The position numbers and the translations under genes were made by a program. From a virus: a DNA stretch of 42,160 bases. Where the stretch lies: IMG/VR virus record IMGVR_UViG_3300037189_003672, positions 1 through 42,160 of that record. One strand, 5' to 3'. The stretch's first letter is position 1; every line of letters begins with the position of its first letter. Positions 3,463 through 26,541 of the stretch are shown here, one piece after another. Under the pieces are notes generated by a model that saw only the letters and a list, made by a program, of their open reading frames with translations, was not told the origin of the DNA and searched no databases.

Positions 3463-4857
3463 ATGGCTCAGCCATTCCTCCCGATAACAACTAACGCCTT
3501 CGTAACAGGTGGAACTGGTGGAAACACTCAGTTTGGTGGTCCTTCACACCAGGGAAATCCTGCCGTAACTGTTGCAATCCCGCAGGCTCCGTTTGGCATT
3601 GCCGTTGACGACCTGGCTCCCACTTCTGATGGTGCGGCAACTGCTTCAGCAGGTATTGACGTAACTGGTGTAGCTACTGCTACTGTAAGTTTTACTACTA
3701 CTGGTTCAGCTGCACTTGACGTAACGGCTGCCGCCTCTACTGCCCAGTCATACCCTACTACTGGTAGTGCGTCTATCTCTATTGTTGGTGCAGACGCCGC
3801 ATCACTTAGCTTCCCAGTAACTGCTACTAACACGATTAGCCTAGTAGGTACTGCTACAGGTTCACTATCATACGCCATTACTGGTACTGGTGCAGTATCT
3901 GTAGTTGGTGCTGCCAACATTTCTAACCCCGTATTTACATCTGCAGGTTCTGGTGCCCTAACTCTTACAGCTAGTGCTACTGACGTAAACGCTTACCCTG
4001 TAACCGCAACTGGTGCACTGACTCTTACAGCATCCGCTACTATCACTAACCCAGTATTTACCACTACTGGTGCTGGGGCAGTTGGATTAGTAGGTATTGC
4101 TACTACTGCTCCTGGTGCCACTACTGCATCAGGTGCTATTTCTATTACGGGAACTGCTACCGCAACAGTAAGTTACACAACTACTGGTTCAGGTGCAGTT
4201 GGACTTGTTGGTGCTGCTACCAGTGCGTTGGCTTACCCAGTTACTGCCAGTGGCGGTATTACACTTACCGCTACTGCTACGGATGTTGAAAAGTTCCCAG
4301 TAACTGCTTCTGGTGCAATAACTTTAACTGGAACTGCCACAGGTACAGTTGCATTTACTACAACTGGTACTGCTGCCGTATCTCTAGTTGGAGCCGCTAG
4401 TTCAAGTAACTCGGCAACTATTGCTTCTGGAGCAATCTCGATTGTTGGAGCTGCTCTTGCTGGGCTATCTTACCCAACTACGGCTAGCGGAACAGTATCC
4501 ATAGTTGGTGCTGCGTCTGACGCAATTAAGTTTACAACCACGGGTACTGGGGCAGTAGCCCTGACCGCAACCGCTACTGCGGGGTTAAAGTACATTACGG
4601 TTGGCTCTGGTTCTTTATCGATAACTTCTGCTGCAACTCCGCTAACTAACGTAAACGCTGTTGGAGCAGTTTCAATAACTGCTACTGCAACTCCTGCACT
4701 AAAATACCCAGTAAGTGCTTCAGGATTAGTAAACCTAGTGGCAATAGGCTCAGGTTCTGTAGGGTATACCTCTGCTGGTAATGGAGCAATAAATATTTCA
4801 GGAACTGCTACGGGTACTAAGAAGAATGTCTTTACTGGCTGGGGAATACCTATTTAG
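3463..4857 (+). CDS. Fibre-shaft protein made of about 20-residue degenerate repeats
   Basis: 464 residues. After an N-terminal head of about 60 residues, the protein consists of roughly eighteen to twenty degenerate repeats of about 20 residues, with a pattern like TGSGAVSLVGAATxxxxYPV. Small residues (Gly, Ala, Ser, Thr) alternate with Val/Ile/Leu, and a Tyr or Phe recurs near the end of each unit. Such a period suggests an elongated beta-solenoid or a string of short hairpins, that is, a fibre shaft. It ends KKNVFTGWGIPI. Almost no charged residues occur in the repeats. The ribosome binding site is GGAGGAG (3446-3452). Function as a fibre is inferred from composition and neighbours. Confidence 0.7.
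   Translation: MAQPFLPITTNAFVTGGTGGNTQFGGPSHQGNPAVTVAIPQAPFGIAVDDLAPTSDGAATASAGIDVTGVATATVSFTTTGSAALDVTAAASTAQSYPTTGSASISIVGADAASLSFPVTATNTISLVGTATGSLSYAITGTGAVSVVGAANISNPVFTSAGSGALTLTASATDVNAYPVTATGALTLTASATITNPVFTTTGAGAVGLVGIATTAPGATTASGAISITGTATATVSYTTTGSGAVGLVGAATSALAYPVTASGGITLTATATDVEKFPVTASGAITLTGTATGTVAFTTTGTAAVSLVGAASSSNSATIASGAISIVGAALAGLSYPTTASGTVSIVGAASDAIKFTTTGTGAVALTATATAGLKYITVGSGSLSITSAATPLTNVNAVGAVSITATATPALKYPVSASGLVNLVAIGSGSVGYTSAGNGAINISGTATGTKKNVFTGWGIPI
3650..4800 (+). repeat. Degenerate tandem coding repeat, period about 60 bp
   Basis: The DNA of the fibre-shaft gene repeats with a period near 60 bases (some units 54-66), matching the 20-residue protein repeat. Copies have diverged in third positions, so they are old duplications held by protein structure, or have been shuffled by recombination. 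There is no spacer/repeat regularity of a CRISPR array. Confidence 0.75.
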
Positions 4858-4865
4858 GAATATGA

Positions 4866-5099
4866 ATGATTACATTACAGCATAAAAGAGGTACAGCAGC
4901 CAACTGGACATTACGTAATCCAGTTTTGGCACAAGGTGAGTTTGGGCTCGAAACTGACACAAATAAGCTTAAAATTGGAGACGGAGTAACTGCTTGGATT
5001 TTGCTCCCTTACTTTAGCCCTTCTGCTGGAAATCTAGATGGTGGGTTGCCCGATTCCATTTATGGTGGAACTACCGCAGTTGATGGAGGTGGAATCTAA
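4866..5099 (+). CDS. Stand-alone Mtd N-terminal-like fibre domain protein
   Basis: 77 residues. The first 50 residues (HKRGTAANW, then PVLAQGEFGLETDT and KIGDGVTAW) match the short domain found at the N-terminus of the major tropism determinant and of many phage fibres; it usually starts a fibre and may dock it to the virion. Here the domain is nearly the whole gene, followed by a Gly-rich tail (DGGLPDSIYGG). Homologous domains occur at the start of the 5099-6058 and 15434-15733 genes. The stop overlaps the next start (TAATG). It may be a docking adaptor or the remains of a larger fibre gene. Confidence 0.75.
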   Translation: MITLQHKRGTAANWTLRNPVLAQGEFGLETDTNKLKIGDGVTAWILLPYFSPSAGNLDGGLPDSIYGGTTAVDGGGI

Positions 5100-6058
5100 T
5101 GGCTGTACAAATTCAGCTTAGGCGTGGAACTGCAGCAGCTTGGACTGCTGCCAATCCTATTCTTGCTCAAGGCGAGCTTGCCATGGAGACCGACACTCTA
5201 AAGTTTAAAGTTGGTAATGGCTCATCTACTTGGACTGTTCTGCCTTATTTTACTCAAGGAACCACGGGGGCTACTGGTCCAACTGGACCTACTGGAGCAA
5301 CAGGTGCCGCGGGAGCAACAGGTGCAACGGGAGCTACAGGTCCTTCTAACGTTCTGAGTATTGGTAGTGTTACTGCTAGTACTACTGCCGCAGCCACAAT
5401 TAGCGGTACTTCTCCAAGTCAAACACTTAATTTAGTTCTTCCTTATGGACCAACTGGAGCGACTGGTCCTACTGGACCTTCTAATAGCCTAAACATTGGT
5501 ACTGTAACTACTGGTGCTTCTGGCTCTGCTGCTGCAGCTACCATTACTGGAACCGCACCTAGCCAGATTTTAAATCTGACTATTCCTCAGGGGCCTGCCA
5601 CCGCAACTGTTGCTGTGGGTACTACTACTGCTCTTCCTGCAGGAGCTGCTCCAACTGTAACTAACACTGGTACTTCTAGTGCTGCAGTATTTAACTTTGG
5701 AATTCCTGGAGGATTAACCCCAGATGTCATTCCTATTGATGATTTACACAACAATTTTAACGGTATTCAAAACCGTTTTATGCCAACTTACCAGGGTGCA
5801 CAAATATCGTTAACTAACCCTTTCTTACTATTGGTCTCAGTAAACGGTGTTATGCAAAAAGTCAACAGCCCAGAGGTTGTTTGGCAATCAGGAATACCCT
5901 TTAATGGGCTATTCTTAGATTCTGATGGTTATATTGCGTTCCACGGAATACCACCATTGGGGTCCACTTTTGATGGTAGAATTATGTCTGGACCGTCAAC
6001 CACAACAATGACAACAAACTATCCATTCCGTGCAGTGGACTTACTCCTAGGAGCGTAA
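5099..6058 (+). CDS. Fibre protein: Mtd-N-like domain, collagen-like repeats and beta tip
   Basis: 319 residues. Residues 1-50 are an Mtd-N-like domain (LRRGTAAAW, then LETDTLKFKVGNGSSTW-like). A Gly-X-Y stretch follows at about 54-82 and a second at about 116-128, each followed by a similar unit (SIGSVTASTTAAATISGT and NIGTVTTGASGSAAAATITGT) known from phage collagen fibres. The C-terminus (about 220-319) is a compact domain with Trp, Phe and Asp residues that should be the receptor-facing tip. It is made as a trimer by analogy with other collagen-like phage fibres. It overlaps the preceding small gene by one base, suggesting joint production. Confidence 0.8.
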   Translation: MAVQIQLRRGTAAAWTAANPILAQGELAMETDTLKFKVGNGSSTWTVLPYFTQGTTGATGPTGPTGATGAAGATGATGATGPSNVLSIGSVTASTTAAATISGTSPSQTLNLVLPYGPTGATGPTGPSNSLNIGTVTTGASGSAAAATITGTAPSQILNLTIPQGPATATVAVGTTTALPAGAAPTVTNTGTSSAAVFNFGIPGGLTPDVIPIDDLHNNFNGIQNRFMPTYQGAQISLTNPFLLLVSVNGVMQKVNSPEVVWQSGIPFNGLFLDSDGYIAFHGIPPLGSTFDGRIMSGPSTTTMTTNYPFRAVDLLLGA

Positions 6059-22521: not shown

Positions 22522-23172
22522 ATGGCAACTATCCTAAATAACCGTTCAACTATTGCTACTGACCCGATTAGAAATTTCCGATTTCTTGTTCGTTTCATTC
22601 CTCAGGACCAAAGCCAGGACTGGGCTAAGAAGCTCAAGGATATTTCCTTCGGCTTTACTTCGGTAACTGGTATGGCAGTAACTACTGACTCGATTCCTTA
22701 TCGTGAAGGTGGATACAACACCACTGTTCACCAGATTCCTGGCCAGAGTTCGTTTGCTCCATTACAGCTACAGCGTGGTGTACAAATTGGTACTCGTCAG
22801 AACTGGGACTGGATGCAGCAGCTATTCCAGACTGTTCAGGGAACTACTGTTCGTGGCTCGGCAAGCAACTTCCGTTGCGACGTAATCATCGACGTACTAA
22901 GCCACCCCGTTGCGTCTATTGCTACTGGTGCTGGCTCAACTAATGGTGTTACTGCCACAGTAGGAACTATTGGTCAGGGGTCTCAGGACGACCACGTATC
23001 AATGCGATTCCGTGTTTACAACGCCTGGATTACTTCGCTAGCTTACTCAGACCTAAGTGCTGGTGACAACGCTATCCTAGTGGAGCAGATGTCGCTAGTT
23101 CACGAAGGCTGGACAAGCAGTTGGGCAACTAGCATGAACGAAGCTGACACAGCTGAAGAAATTAAGTACTAA
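22522..23172 (+). CDS. Tail tube protein (gp19-like)
   Basis: 216 residues, with AAGGAGATAG before the ATG. The start DPIRNFRFLVRFIPQDQ, then GFTSVTGMAVTTDSIPYREG and HQIPGQSSFAPLQLQRGV, match T4 gp19-type tail tube proteins, which stack as hexamers inside the sheath. The FTSVTG and YREGG motifs are typical, and a WxxQLF segment follows. Biased codon use as in the sheath. Directly after the sheath gene, as usual. Confidence 0.93.
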   Translation: MATILNNRSTIATDPIRNFRFLVRFIPQDQSQDWAKKLKDISFGFTSVTGMAVTTDSIPYREGGYNTTVHQIPGQSSFAPLQLQRGVQIGTRQNWDWMQQLFQTVQGTTVRGSASNFRCDVIIDVLSHPVASIATGAGSTNGVTATVGTIGQGSQDDHVSMRFRVYNAWITSLAYSDLSAGDNAILVEQMSLVHEGWTSSWATSMNEADTAEEIKY

Positions 23173-23196: not shown

Positions 23197-24009
23197 ATGG
23201 AAAATAATACATTTACAGCTCTAGAAGATACTGCAAAAGCTAACCAGATTCTTGCAGAAGCAATTGCGGAGCCCGTATACGAAGAACCTGCACAAATTAT
23301 TGCTCCTTCGGACACTACGGTAAACCTTCCTGGTGGATACATGACATTCACTGGGGAGGTTTACCGTACTGCTGAAGTACGTGAACTAAATGGTCGAGAT
23401 GAAGAAATCATTGCCAAAGCAGGCGTTGGTTCTAAGATGTTTTCGGCTATCCTGTCTCGGGGAACGGTTTCAGTAGGAGAAAAGCCTGCTGATGACCGTC
23501 TTTTGGACAATTTGCTTATTGGTGACCGTGAAGCTATTCTATTAGGCATTTATAAAGCTACTTTTGGTCCTACTGCAAAGGTGTACTCCTGGTGTGCAGG
23601 ATGCAAGGAAACTAAAGATATTCAAATTGATATTGATAAAGATATCAAAACTAAAATTCTTGTAGACCCAGTTGGAGACCGTGAGTTTACGGTAAAAGGC
23701 AAGAAAAACGAATACTCAGTAACTCTTCCTACTGGTGTAGCAGAAAAGGCTATTTCAGCAGACCCGAATAAAAACTATGCCGAAAAGGTGACTATTCTTC
23801 TAGAGAATACTGTAGTCAGTATTAACGGCAGCCCTGTAGTAAGTAAGTCCCAGATACAGAATCTAGGACTACAAGACCGAAATAAAATTTCAGAAGAACT
23901 TGCAAGTCGCAATTCTGGGCCAATCTTTGATGACATTGTTATGGTGTGTCCAGATTGCGATGGTGAGATTGTGGTGCCAGTAAATCTAGGTGCCATCTTT
24001 CGGCTCTAA
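23197..24009 (+). CDS. T4 gp26-like (T4_baseplate family) tail assembly chaperone, unshifted product
   Basis: 270 residues. Residues about 45-150 (NLPGGYMTFTG, AEVRELNGRDEEIIAK, LLIGDREAILLGIYKATFGP) follow the pattern of the T4 gp26 baseplate-hub/tail-assembly family. Two CxxC knuckles are present: C133-C136 (WCAGC) and C251-C254 (VCPDC), which could hold zinc. It lies between tail tube and tape measure, the classic place of tail assembly chaperones that are made in two forms by ribosomal frameshifting. The frame ends NLGAIFRL-stop, but a +1 frame continues without a good start to the tape measure gene; see the 23990-24166 entry. Confidence 0.8.
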   Translation: MENNTFTALEDTAKANQILAEAIAEPVYEEPAQIIAPSDTTVNLPGGYMTFTGEVYRTAEVRELNGRDEEIIAKAGVGSKMFSAILSRGTVSVGEKPADDRLLDNLLIGDREAILLGIYKATFGPTAKVYSWCAGCKETKDIQIDIDKDIKTKILVDPVGDREFTVKGKKNEYSVTLPTGVAEKAISADPNKNYAEKVTILLENTVVSINGSPVVSKSQIQNLGLQDRNKISEELASRNSGPIFDDIVMVCPDCDGEIVVPVNLGAIFRL

Positions 24010-24166
24010 TATTACTCCGTACAATGATTTGCTAGCTGAGTGGTTGGTGCTAACGCACCACTTCTCTGGCTGGACCTTAACTGAGATTAAGGACCTTTCT
24101 CCTAGAGAAAGAAAGAACTGGATTGCATTAGCAAATGAACTAGGAAAGGCGTTGAAGAAGTCCTAA
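23990..24166 (+). CDS. C-terminal frameshift extension of the tail assembly chaperone
   Basis: A frame +1 relative to the 270-residue gene is open from 23990 to a stop at 24164-24166 that overlaps the tape measure ATG (TAATG). It encodes about 55 residues after the shift (ITPYNDLLAEWLVLTHHF, then TLTEIKDLSPRERKNWIALA and ELGKALKKS). The overlap contains the slip-prone run ATC-TTT-CGG: tRNA-Phe on UUU can move one base to UUC while a CGG codon waits. The shift would give about 326 residues. Alternatively GTG 23990 starts a separate gene, but it has only a poor, badly spaced ribosome binding site. A -2 shift is also conceivable. Confidence 0.7.
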   Translation: MPSFGSNITPYNDLLAEWLVLTHHFSGWTLTEIKDLSPRERKNWIALANELGKALKKS

Positions 24167-26541
24167 TGGGTGACATTATCAACTCTATCGACAAACAAAC
24201 TAAGGTCGAAGAATCCCTAGTCAGTGCAATTAAGACACTAGTTTCTCGCATGACTGGCTCAGCTGGTCGAATTGCGGGAGGTGTTCCAAGTGCTGGTAGC
24301 GGTGGGTCAGTTATGCCTACCTCGTTTGGCAATATGAGTGCTCCTGAACTTTTAGCAAGTTCTAGGGCCGCAAATCTTGGCTATAATTCGTTAATTGGTA
24401 TTGCCCAAATGGGCAAGGGCCTAATTGGCGGTGCGGCTATGATGATGCCAAACATGCAGGCATCACTTTCTCGTGGTGCTGGGTTCTACAATGCTGGTGT
24501 ATTTGCAGGAACTAATTACCAAGGTCTAGCTACTAATACCATGAGCATGATGCGTGGTGGTATATCTGAAATTGGCGGAGACGCTCAGACTGCAAACACT
24601 CTTATCGGTATGGGAATTAACCCCACTGGAACAGGGGTTAATGCTGGTCAATACAAAAACTTAGTAACATCTACTGCAAATGCAGCTAAATACTTAAACA
24701 TGGGTAACCAGCAAGCTTCTGCTGCTCTTGGTGGCCTTACCCAAGGTGGAACTTCGCAGTCTTTGATGCGTAATTTTGGTGTTTGGACGACAGACCCAGT
24801 TACAGGTAAGCGTCAGAGTGCTACTCAAATATTTTCACAGATGTACAATCGAATTACTGCTGGACAAAAGCTAAGCCGTAGTGACCTGGAGACATCGCTT
24901 CAAGGTGGTGCACTAGCTGTAGATATCCAAAATTCTGGGTTGACGCAAGACCAACAGAACTTGTTTACTCAGTACACACTGGACCGTGCTAGTGGTAAAA
25001 ACATGGACCTTGGCAACCAGAAAGCCATGGATGCAATGTTTAAAGGTCAAGCAGGTAAAAACGGTACTGGAGAAAATCCATATAGTTCTCAATACAAAAT
25101 GAACAGTGCTACTACAGGTGCTCTTAACGACTCCTTGCAACCTTTTATTACAGGTATGAAAAATGCTGTGCCTATGTTTGAAAAACTAGAGCAGACATCT
25201 GGTGCTTTGGCTAAGCAGTTTGGTTCTCTTAGTGCCTACATTCAAACACTTGCGAGTAGCGGTCCTGGTCAAGGAGCAGCGTATGCTGCGGGTGGAGTTG
25301 CTTCTGGGCTTACATCTATTGGTGGAGCAATGGTTACAAATGCCGCACTAAGTAGGATGATGGGTGGCAAAACTGATACGGGTGCTGGGCGAGGTTGGTT
25401 TGGTAAAGGCAGTGTAAAACCTGGAGGTAGATTCGGCACTCGTCCATCTGGTGTTGGTAAAGTGGGGGCTGCTGGAGCTGCGGTAATGGGTGGTTTAACT
25501 CTTGCTAATGACGCTATGAATGGGCAAGGTTGGGGAAGTAAAAAGTTTAGTACTGATGCGGGATCTACTGTAGGTGGAATTGCTGGAAGCATTGCGGGTT
25601 CATTCCTTGACCCAGTTCTTGGTCCTTTTGGAACAATTCTTGGTGGTATGGCGGGAGCGGCTATTGGTGGAGCTATTGGAGGTATGTTTGGCGGTGGAGA
25701 GACATCTACTATTCAAACGGGAACTTCCACTGACACTAAAAAAAGTTTTAAACTTGCACGCCCAGTTAGTGCAAAAGTAACTCTTGGATATGGTGTTGTT
25801 GATGAAAACCACGCTACGGGTCACCATGGAATTGACTTTGGTTGTGGCCCAAATACTCCAGTTCAAGCAGCTGCTGATGGTGTAGCTAACGCACCTTATT
25901 ACAGTACCGAAATTGGTAACGTTGTAGAAATTGACCACGGTAATGGTTACACCTCGTTGTACGCTCACCTAACTTCTGCTGGAGTTAGAGCAGGAGATGC
26001 AGTAAAACAAGGACAAGTTATTGCCGCTAGTGGTAACACAGGTAACAATACTACTGGACCTCACCTTCACCTAGGGCTAAAGGGTCCTAATGGAATTACT
26101 GACCCAACTCCATTTTTAGTTGGTGGAGTAGCCGTAAACGGTGGTCAAACTTCTATCGGAAGTTCTGGAGATGCAGCTAAGGCTGGGTATGGTTCAGCTG
26201 ACTCTGCTGGTGGTTTGGGGTACAGCAATGACTACAACGCCCCTAAAGCTGCTGGAGGAATTCCACAATCTTATAGTGGTGCAGCTATTGCTAAGGGAGC
26301 AGCCAGTTCTGCAGGCTCTTTGGGGCGTAGTGACTCGGTACTTGGGGGAGCTCAAGGAAGCATGAGCACAGGTACTAGCAACTCTTATAAGGGTGGTGGA
26401 GATGCCCCAGTTAAGAGTAATAACTTTAACATTACTGTTAATATTGCTCAAGCTAGCGAATCTGAAGCCCGTAAATTTGCCCAAATGATTAAGGGCTACA
26501 TTGAACAAGAAACTCTTACTAACAACATGGGACGGCTATAA
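24166..26541 (+). CDS. Tape measure protein with M23 peptidase domain
   Basis: 791 residues. The N-terminal 380 are helical and polar, the usual tape measure build. About 380-515 is hydrophobic and glycine-rich (VGGIAGSIAGSFLDPVLGPF, AAIGGAIGGMFGG) and may interact with the host membrane. Residues about 540-650 form an M23/LytM metallopeptidase: HxxxD at H553-D557 (HHGIDFG) and HxH at H633-H635 (GPHLHLG) are the zinc ligands. This would cut peptidoglycan cross-links during DNA entry. The end (EARKFAQMIKGYIEQETL) is helical. At roughly 1.5 Angstrom per residue the tail would be about 0.1 micrometre long (rule of thumb). Confidence 0.9.
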   Translation: MGDIINSIDKQTKVEESLVSAIKTLVSRMTGSAGRIAGGVPSAGSGGSVMPTSFGNMSAPELLASSRAANLGYNSLIGIAQMGKGLIGGAAMMMPNMQASLSRGAGFYNAGVFAGTNYQGLATNTMSMMRGGISEIGGDAQTANTLIGMGINPTGTGVNAGQYKNLVTSTANAAKYLNMGNQQASAALGGLTQGGTSQSLMRNFGVWTTDPVTGKRQSATQIFSQMYNRITAGQKLSRSDLETSLQGGALAVDIQNSGLTQDQQNLFTQYTLDRASGKNMDLGNQKAMDAMFKGQAGKNGTGENPYSSQYKMNSATTGALNDSLQPFITGMKNAVPMFEKLEQTSGALAKQFGSLSAYIQTLASSGPGQGAAYAAGGVASGLTSIGGAMVTNAALSRMMGGKTDTGAGRGWFGKGSVKPGGRFGTRPSGVGKVGAAGAAVMGGLTLANDAMNGQGWGSKKFSTDAGSTVGGIAGSIAGSFLDPVLGPFGTILGGMAGAAIGGAIGGMFGGGETSTIQTGTSTDTKKSFKLARPVSAKVTLGYGVVDENHATGHHGIDFGCGPNTPVQAAADGVANAPYYSTEIGNVVEIDHGNGYTSLYAHLTSAGVRAGDAVKQGQVIAASGNTGNNTTGPHLHLGLKGPNGITDPTPFLVGGVAVNGGQTSIGSSGDAAKAGYGSADSAGGLGYSNDYNAPKAAGGIPQSYSGAAIAKGAASSAGSLGRSDSVLGGAQGSMSTGTSNSYKGGGDAPVKSNNFNITVNIAQASESEARKFAQMIKGYIEQETLTNNMGRL

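Follow-up and report, generated by a model that had tools for sequence, protein, structure and literature searches.

Between its tail tube and tape measure genes, the 42,160-base IMG/VR virus record analysed here (the window, to whose coordinates all positions refer) carries two overlapping open reading frames, and the question is how the second of them is translated. Tail assembly chaperones made by frameshifting are a textbook phenomenon. They are widely conserved in -1, -2 and +1 forms, and T4 has been named as an exception (PMC5009743). The original prediction proposed a +1 ribosomal frameshift at this locus. In this study, we examined the locus, its relatives and the two parts of the predicted protein.

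Frame break ahead of the tape measure gene

As shown in Table 1, the gene order is tail tube, chaperone and tape measure. The 270-residue ORF terminates at a TAA at 24007-24009. The +1 frame has stops at 23981 (TAA) and 23987 (TAG), is open from 23990 to 24163, and closes with a TAA that overlaps the tape measure ATG at 24166. It has 55 codons counted from the TTC at 23999 and 58 from an in-frame GTG at 23990. These coordinates agree with those given in the original prediction, which also held that the +1 frame has neither an ATG nor a good ribosome binding site. Indeed, no ATG was found at the beginning of this frame, and no Shine-Dalgarno match of at least 4 nt was found ahead of the GTG. 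The zero frame in the overlap reads ATC TTT CGG CTC TAA, with TTT at 23998-24000. The 270-residue protein scored 30.9 bits against PF12322 (T4_baseplate, the T4 gp26/gp51 family), above the curated cut-off of 24.5, and has the CxxC pairs C133/C136 and C251/C254; its earlier assignment to the gp26 family with two CxxC pairs was thus confirmed.

Table 1. Features of the tail chaperone locus in window coordinates
Feature	Position	Strand	Evidence
Tail tube protein (T4 gp19-like)	22522..23172	+	PF06841 2.2e-23; phrog_4542 tail tube
Short form (270 aa): tail (hub) assembly chaperone of the T4 gp26/gp51 family with two CxxC pairs	23197..24009	+	PF12322 2.8e-7; AF2 pLDDT 89.8; PDB matches to YqbN and HK97 tail assembly chaperone
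Candidate +1 slip site UUU_C (P-site UUU would re-pair with UUC)	23998..24001	+	TTT_C in 58/58 clusters and 33/43 further clusters
A-site codon CGG, rarest Arg codon in the window (0.8 per 1000 codons)	24001..24003	+	Window codon usage
+1-frame ORF	23990..24166	+	pN/pS 0.33 in its own frame vs 1.9 for the same DNA in the old frame (259 pairs); hhalign to P2 E' and DUF6760
E'/DUF6760-like extension, 54 residues	Codons 24002-24163; stop 24164-24166	+	Codons downstream of the slip
Predicted long form, 322 aa (270-residue protein through F268, then GSNITPYNDLL...)	23197..24166	+	Translation with a single four-base step
Tape measure protein with M23 peptidase domain	24166..26541	+	PF01551 1.2e-26; tape-measure PHROGs; ATG overlaps extension stop

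We are highly confident, from comparison of sequences, that this gene encodes a tail (baseplate hub) assembly chaperone pair of the G/GT type, whose two proteins would be produced through +1 slippage of tRNA-Phe at UUU_C. We infer that the slippage rate is such that most ribosomes would terminate at 24009 and release the short form. On the other ribosomes, the P-site tRNA-Phe on UUU would move forward one base and re-pair on UUC in the +1 frame, after which GGC would be read in place of CGG. A small, P2 E'-related helical domain would thereby be added in the long form. If the two forms act as lambda G/GT and P2 E/E+E' do, tail tube subunits may be recruited by the long form, and the short form may coat the tape measure. 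UUU and UUC are read by one tRNA, whose GAA anticodon forms the better pairing with UUC. The influenza PA-X shift has been explained by the same tRNA-Phe pairing argument (PMC3498833). The GGC codon read after the shift is used 16.9 times per 1000 codons in the window, compared to the rare CGG (Table 1), and the rarity of the A-site CGG fits with slow decoding in the window.

Conservation of the slip site and the downstream frame

A single-protein query against viral contigs found no relatives, and tblastn against phage records returned six Streptomyces phage records and no others. An alignment query against IMG/VR yielded 319 relatives, 80 of which were kept, and a genome scan yielded four. 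The 88 junctions, drawn from IMG/VR contigs, Streptomyces phages and actinobacterial contigs, formed 58 clusters at 90% DNA identity, with the Paractinoplanes locus L090 left out as a different case. The Streptomyces phage junctions showed the same break: the zero frame reads CTG TTT CGC (or CAG) GAA CTC followed by a stop, and the +1 frame opens slightly upstream, with the conserved peptide beginning immediately after TTT-C.

A zero-frame TTT followed by C was present at the homologous place in 58/58 clusters. Elsewhere in the same ORFs, TTT_C accounted for 11 of 330 Phe codons, a contrast given without a p-value because the clusters are non-independent samples. The share of the top base was 1.00 at the third base of the slip codon and at the next base, against a mean of 0.55 at other zero-frame third positions. 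The codon after TTT was CGN in 40 clusters, CAR in 17 and CTC in one; the codons seen were CGG, CGC, CGA, CAG, CAA, CGT and CTC. Since these A-site codons and their amino acids (Arg, Gln, Leu) vary while the first base is C in all 58 clusters, the element kept in the alignment is UUU-C and not a waiting CGG. The original prediction had a UUU slipping to UUC while CGG waits; its slip site held, with the A-site codon as the one point to correct. The homologue alignment that it had suggested also found the overlap itself to be kept.

A second scan with a different alignment served as a test of the slip site on fresh data. It gave 43 new clusters, with TTT_C in the overlap in 33 and CTT_Y in 10, and none of the 43 lacked both. 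Some of the 33 TTT_C clusters have the site 6-9 codons ahead of the stop instead of 3-4, and a few carry a second candidate slip site. The CTT_T/CTT_C clade consists of L266, L279, L283, L284, L286, L289, L294, L299, L301 and L307. The prfB shift takes place at CTT_T (PMC10885494), so a switch to a prfB-like slip codon seems to have occurred in this clade. These results support the +1 reading of the original prediction and suggest that a UUU-C +1 slip is very probable across a large group of contractile-tailed bacterial viruses.

We also examined possible stimulators of the shift. CAG is common in the window (21 per 1000 codons), and because A-site codons such as this one are not rare, codon rarity may not account for all relatives. 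RNAalifold gave no conserved RNA structure, and no upstream stimulator was identified. The downstream per-sequence folding z was -1.65, compared to about -1.0 in control windows, which is only slightly stronger and not convincing. No phage-encoded tRNAs were found in the window.

The downstream frame evolves under purifying selection (Table 1), and its conserved reading begins directly after the slip site, with the consensus FxSxxxxYxxLxxEWxxLxxxxxGWTLxEIKxLSxRERxNWLExA. It could belong to a separate gene, with translation beginning at the GTG at 23990 or, through coupled re-initiation, at an unusual codon, which would yield a free protein of 55-58 residues. The presence of this GTG in the window agrees with such a gene, and so do the actinobacterial injection-system loci, in which a GTG or ATG of the related DUF6760 ORF, preceded by GGGGGA, frequently overlaps the upstream stop. 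However, 29 of the 58 clusters have no ATG, GTG or TTG in the downstream frame over the stretch from the upstream stop to ten codons beyond the slip site. In only three is a start preceded by even a 4-nt Shine-Dalgarno match, in each case a TTG upstream of the slip, compared with 48/58 for the start of the main gene. Homologues with a normal downstream start, which the original prediction had named as evidence against a shift, are therefore not a pattern. A separate gene would also leave the invariant TTT_C unexplained, as well as a conserved reading that begins right at the end of that site, and we consider it improbable.

The same frame would be reached, with one extra residue, by -2 slippage as in phage Mu, and this shift is used by Mu-type tail chaperones (PMC5009743). 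However, a tRNA moved two bases back from TTT would meet TCT in the window or TGT in most relatives, where re-pairing is impossible, and the invariant C after TTT would have no role. This mechanism was rejected as very improbable, less likely even than a separate gene. A sequencing error or a decayed gene, which a single contig alone could not exclude, has a negligible chance of explaining the break and is already refuted by conservation, as the break recurs at one and the same position in 101 clusters, among them Streptomyces phages that were sequenced separately, and the extension is under purifying selection.

In the deposited annotations of the Streptomyces phages (L001-L005), the extension begins at an internal codon or is left out (pSt2308). 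The existing annotations of BRock, LuckySocke, GiJojo and pSt2308 thus split or miss the predicted long protein.

Relationships of the two protein parts

The predicted long form was modelled as two separate parts, the 270-residue protein and the extension. The AlphaFold2 model of the main protein matched T4-type hub assembly proteins among viral models. In a fold comparison with the PDB (VIA), its two best matches were YqbN (Z 6.5, 95 residues), which we take to be a tail assembly chaperone of the XkdN type, and the HK97 tail assembly chaperone (Z 3.8, 94 residues); the two cover largely different parts of the protein and their Z values are middling. The modelled fold is thus supporting, and not decisive, for a relationship to tail assembly chaperones.

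The extension was predicted to fold as three helices (pLDDT 86.8), and a fold search with its 55 residues returned no matches. By hhalign, it matched DUF6760 of actinobacterial contractile injection loci at 93% and P2 E' at 83-84%, the latter with a score of 28; when P2 E' was shuffled 300 times, the highest score was 15.8. The window extension scored 14.4 bits against PF20546 (DUF6760), below the curated cut-off of 27. PF06528 (P2_GpE) gave weak matches in 9 of 57 extension members (best E 0.007), which did not reach the cut-off, and no match in the window's own extension. A scan using P2 E' returned identical copies alone. These results suggest that the extension is remotely related to both DUF6760 and P2 E'. 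No similarity was detected between P2 E and the 270-residue protein.

Related systems and the chaperone pair of contractile tails

The locus resembles P2 E/E+E' in its two nested products ahead of the tape measure, its related extension domain and its contractile tail; the annotation of P2 E+E' gives it as the product of a -1 frameshift, ahead of the tape measure gene T. It differs in that the P2 shift is -1 at a T-run, and the 270-residue protein is larger than P2 E and has CxxC pairs. With lambda G/GT and the tail assembly chaperone class it shares the position ahead of the tape measure and an extension made by frameshifting (PMC5009743), which in the window is predicted; lambda, however, uses a -1 shift, and its sequence is unrelated to the window protein.

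In HF1-like haloarchaeal myoviruses, a TTT-CGC motif with a +1 shift has been proposed (PMC7230728). The slip tetranucleotide, the direction, the spacing and the site between tube and tape measure are the same as in the window, HF2 reading AAG TTT CGC AGA TAG where the window has TTT CGG CTC TAA. However, these viruses are archaeal, the shift there is likewise only proposed, and the first ORF (155 aa) is apparently unrelated, as that of HF2 gave no match to PF12322. The UUU_CGN +1 class of eukaryotic viruses, including influenza PA-X, has the same UUU_C slip with tRNA-Phe re-pairing on UUC and a preference for CGN (PMC3498833). The window group differs in comprising bacterial viruses and in having CAR in the A site in 17/58 clusters and CTC in one. 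A search of open papers, with subscription papers outside its scope, found no report of a +1 UUU_C site for the gp26 family or for bacterial phages.

DUF6760 in actinobacterial contractile injection-system loci is the related extension domain and likewise comes after a gp26-like gene. In contrast to the window, it lies mostly in the -1 frame or is fused in frame. In 36 loci, DUF6760 is in the -1 frame and overlaps or directly adjoins the gene before it; by a hand count over the tabulated junctions, 31 of these 36 have GGGGGAA in register for a -1 shift. Among tail chaperones, every motif of one type had GGGGGAA in the PRFect paper (PMC10885494). A programmed -1 frameshift in contractile injection systems is possible on this evidence; alternatively, GGGGGA could act as the ribosome site for initiation at a GTG or ATG that overlaps the stop. 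L131 has no ATG or GTG in the DUF6760 frame, and no TTG was seen there by eye; this locus, with no start codon in frame, favours a -1 shift. The junctions between the gp26-like and DUF6760 ORFs of L091-L137 are CCTGGGGGAATCGTGACG-like, with an overlapping GTG or ATG in most. L092 (1136-1659) has a DUF6760-like ORF in the -1 frame with neither an ATG or GTG start near the junction nor GGGGGAA. In Paractinoplanes durhamensis (L090, L093), gp26-like and DUF6760-like domains are fused in one 286-residue ORF within a sheath and tube locus. Because the two parts occur there in a single ORF, this relative supports the view that a joined chaperone-extension protein would be functional.

T4 gp26 and gp51 are listed as hub assembly chaperones (PMC3004832). 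Their genes lie at 3803-4429 (gene 26) and 4480-5229 (gene 51) of L094, and both products belong to PF12322. They share this family and the predicted fold with the main protein, but are encoded by two separate genes, and T4 has been called an exception without a G/GT shift (PMC5009743). The C-terminal extra stretch of gp51 (24 residues) is weakly similar to the frameshift extension, scoring 17.0 for T4 alone (shuffle maximum 12.6) and 15.7 for the family profile (shuffle maximum 13.6). This resemblance is no more than suggestive. We consider the chances evenly balanced that contractile tails need a short and a long chaperone of the gp26/gp51 type, obtained by a +1 slip at UUU_C or CUU_Y in the phages studied here, by a -1 shift at GGGGGAA in actinobacterial injection systems, by in-frame fusion in Paractinoplanes, and by duplication in T4, with gp26 as the short form and gp51 as the long form.

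The present results extend the UUU_C +1 shift, which has been described in eukaryotic viruses and proposed in haloarchaeal viruses, to bacterial viruses with strong comparative support, and add a CUU_Y variant within the same gene family. They also offer a possible account of why T4 has two chaperones of the gp26 family. If this account is true, T4 would be no exception to the G/GT rule.
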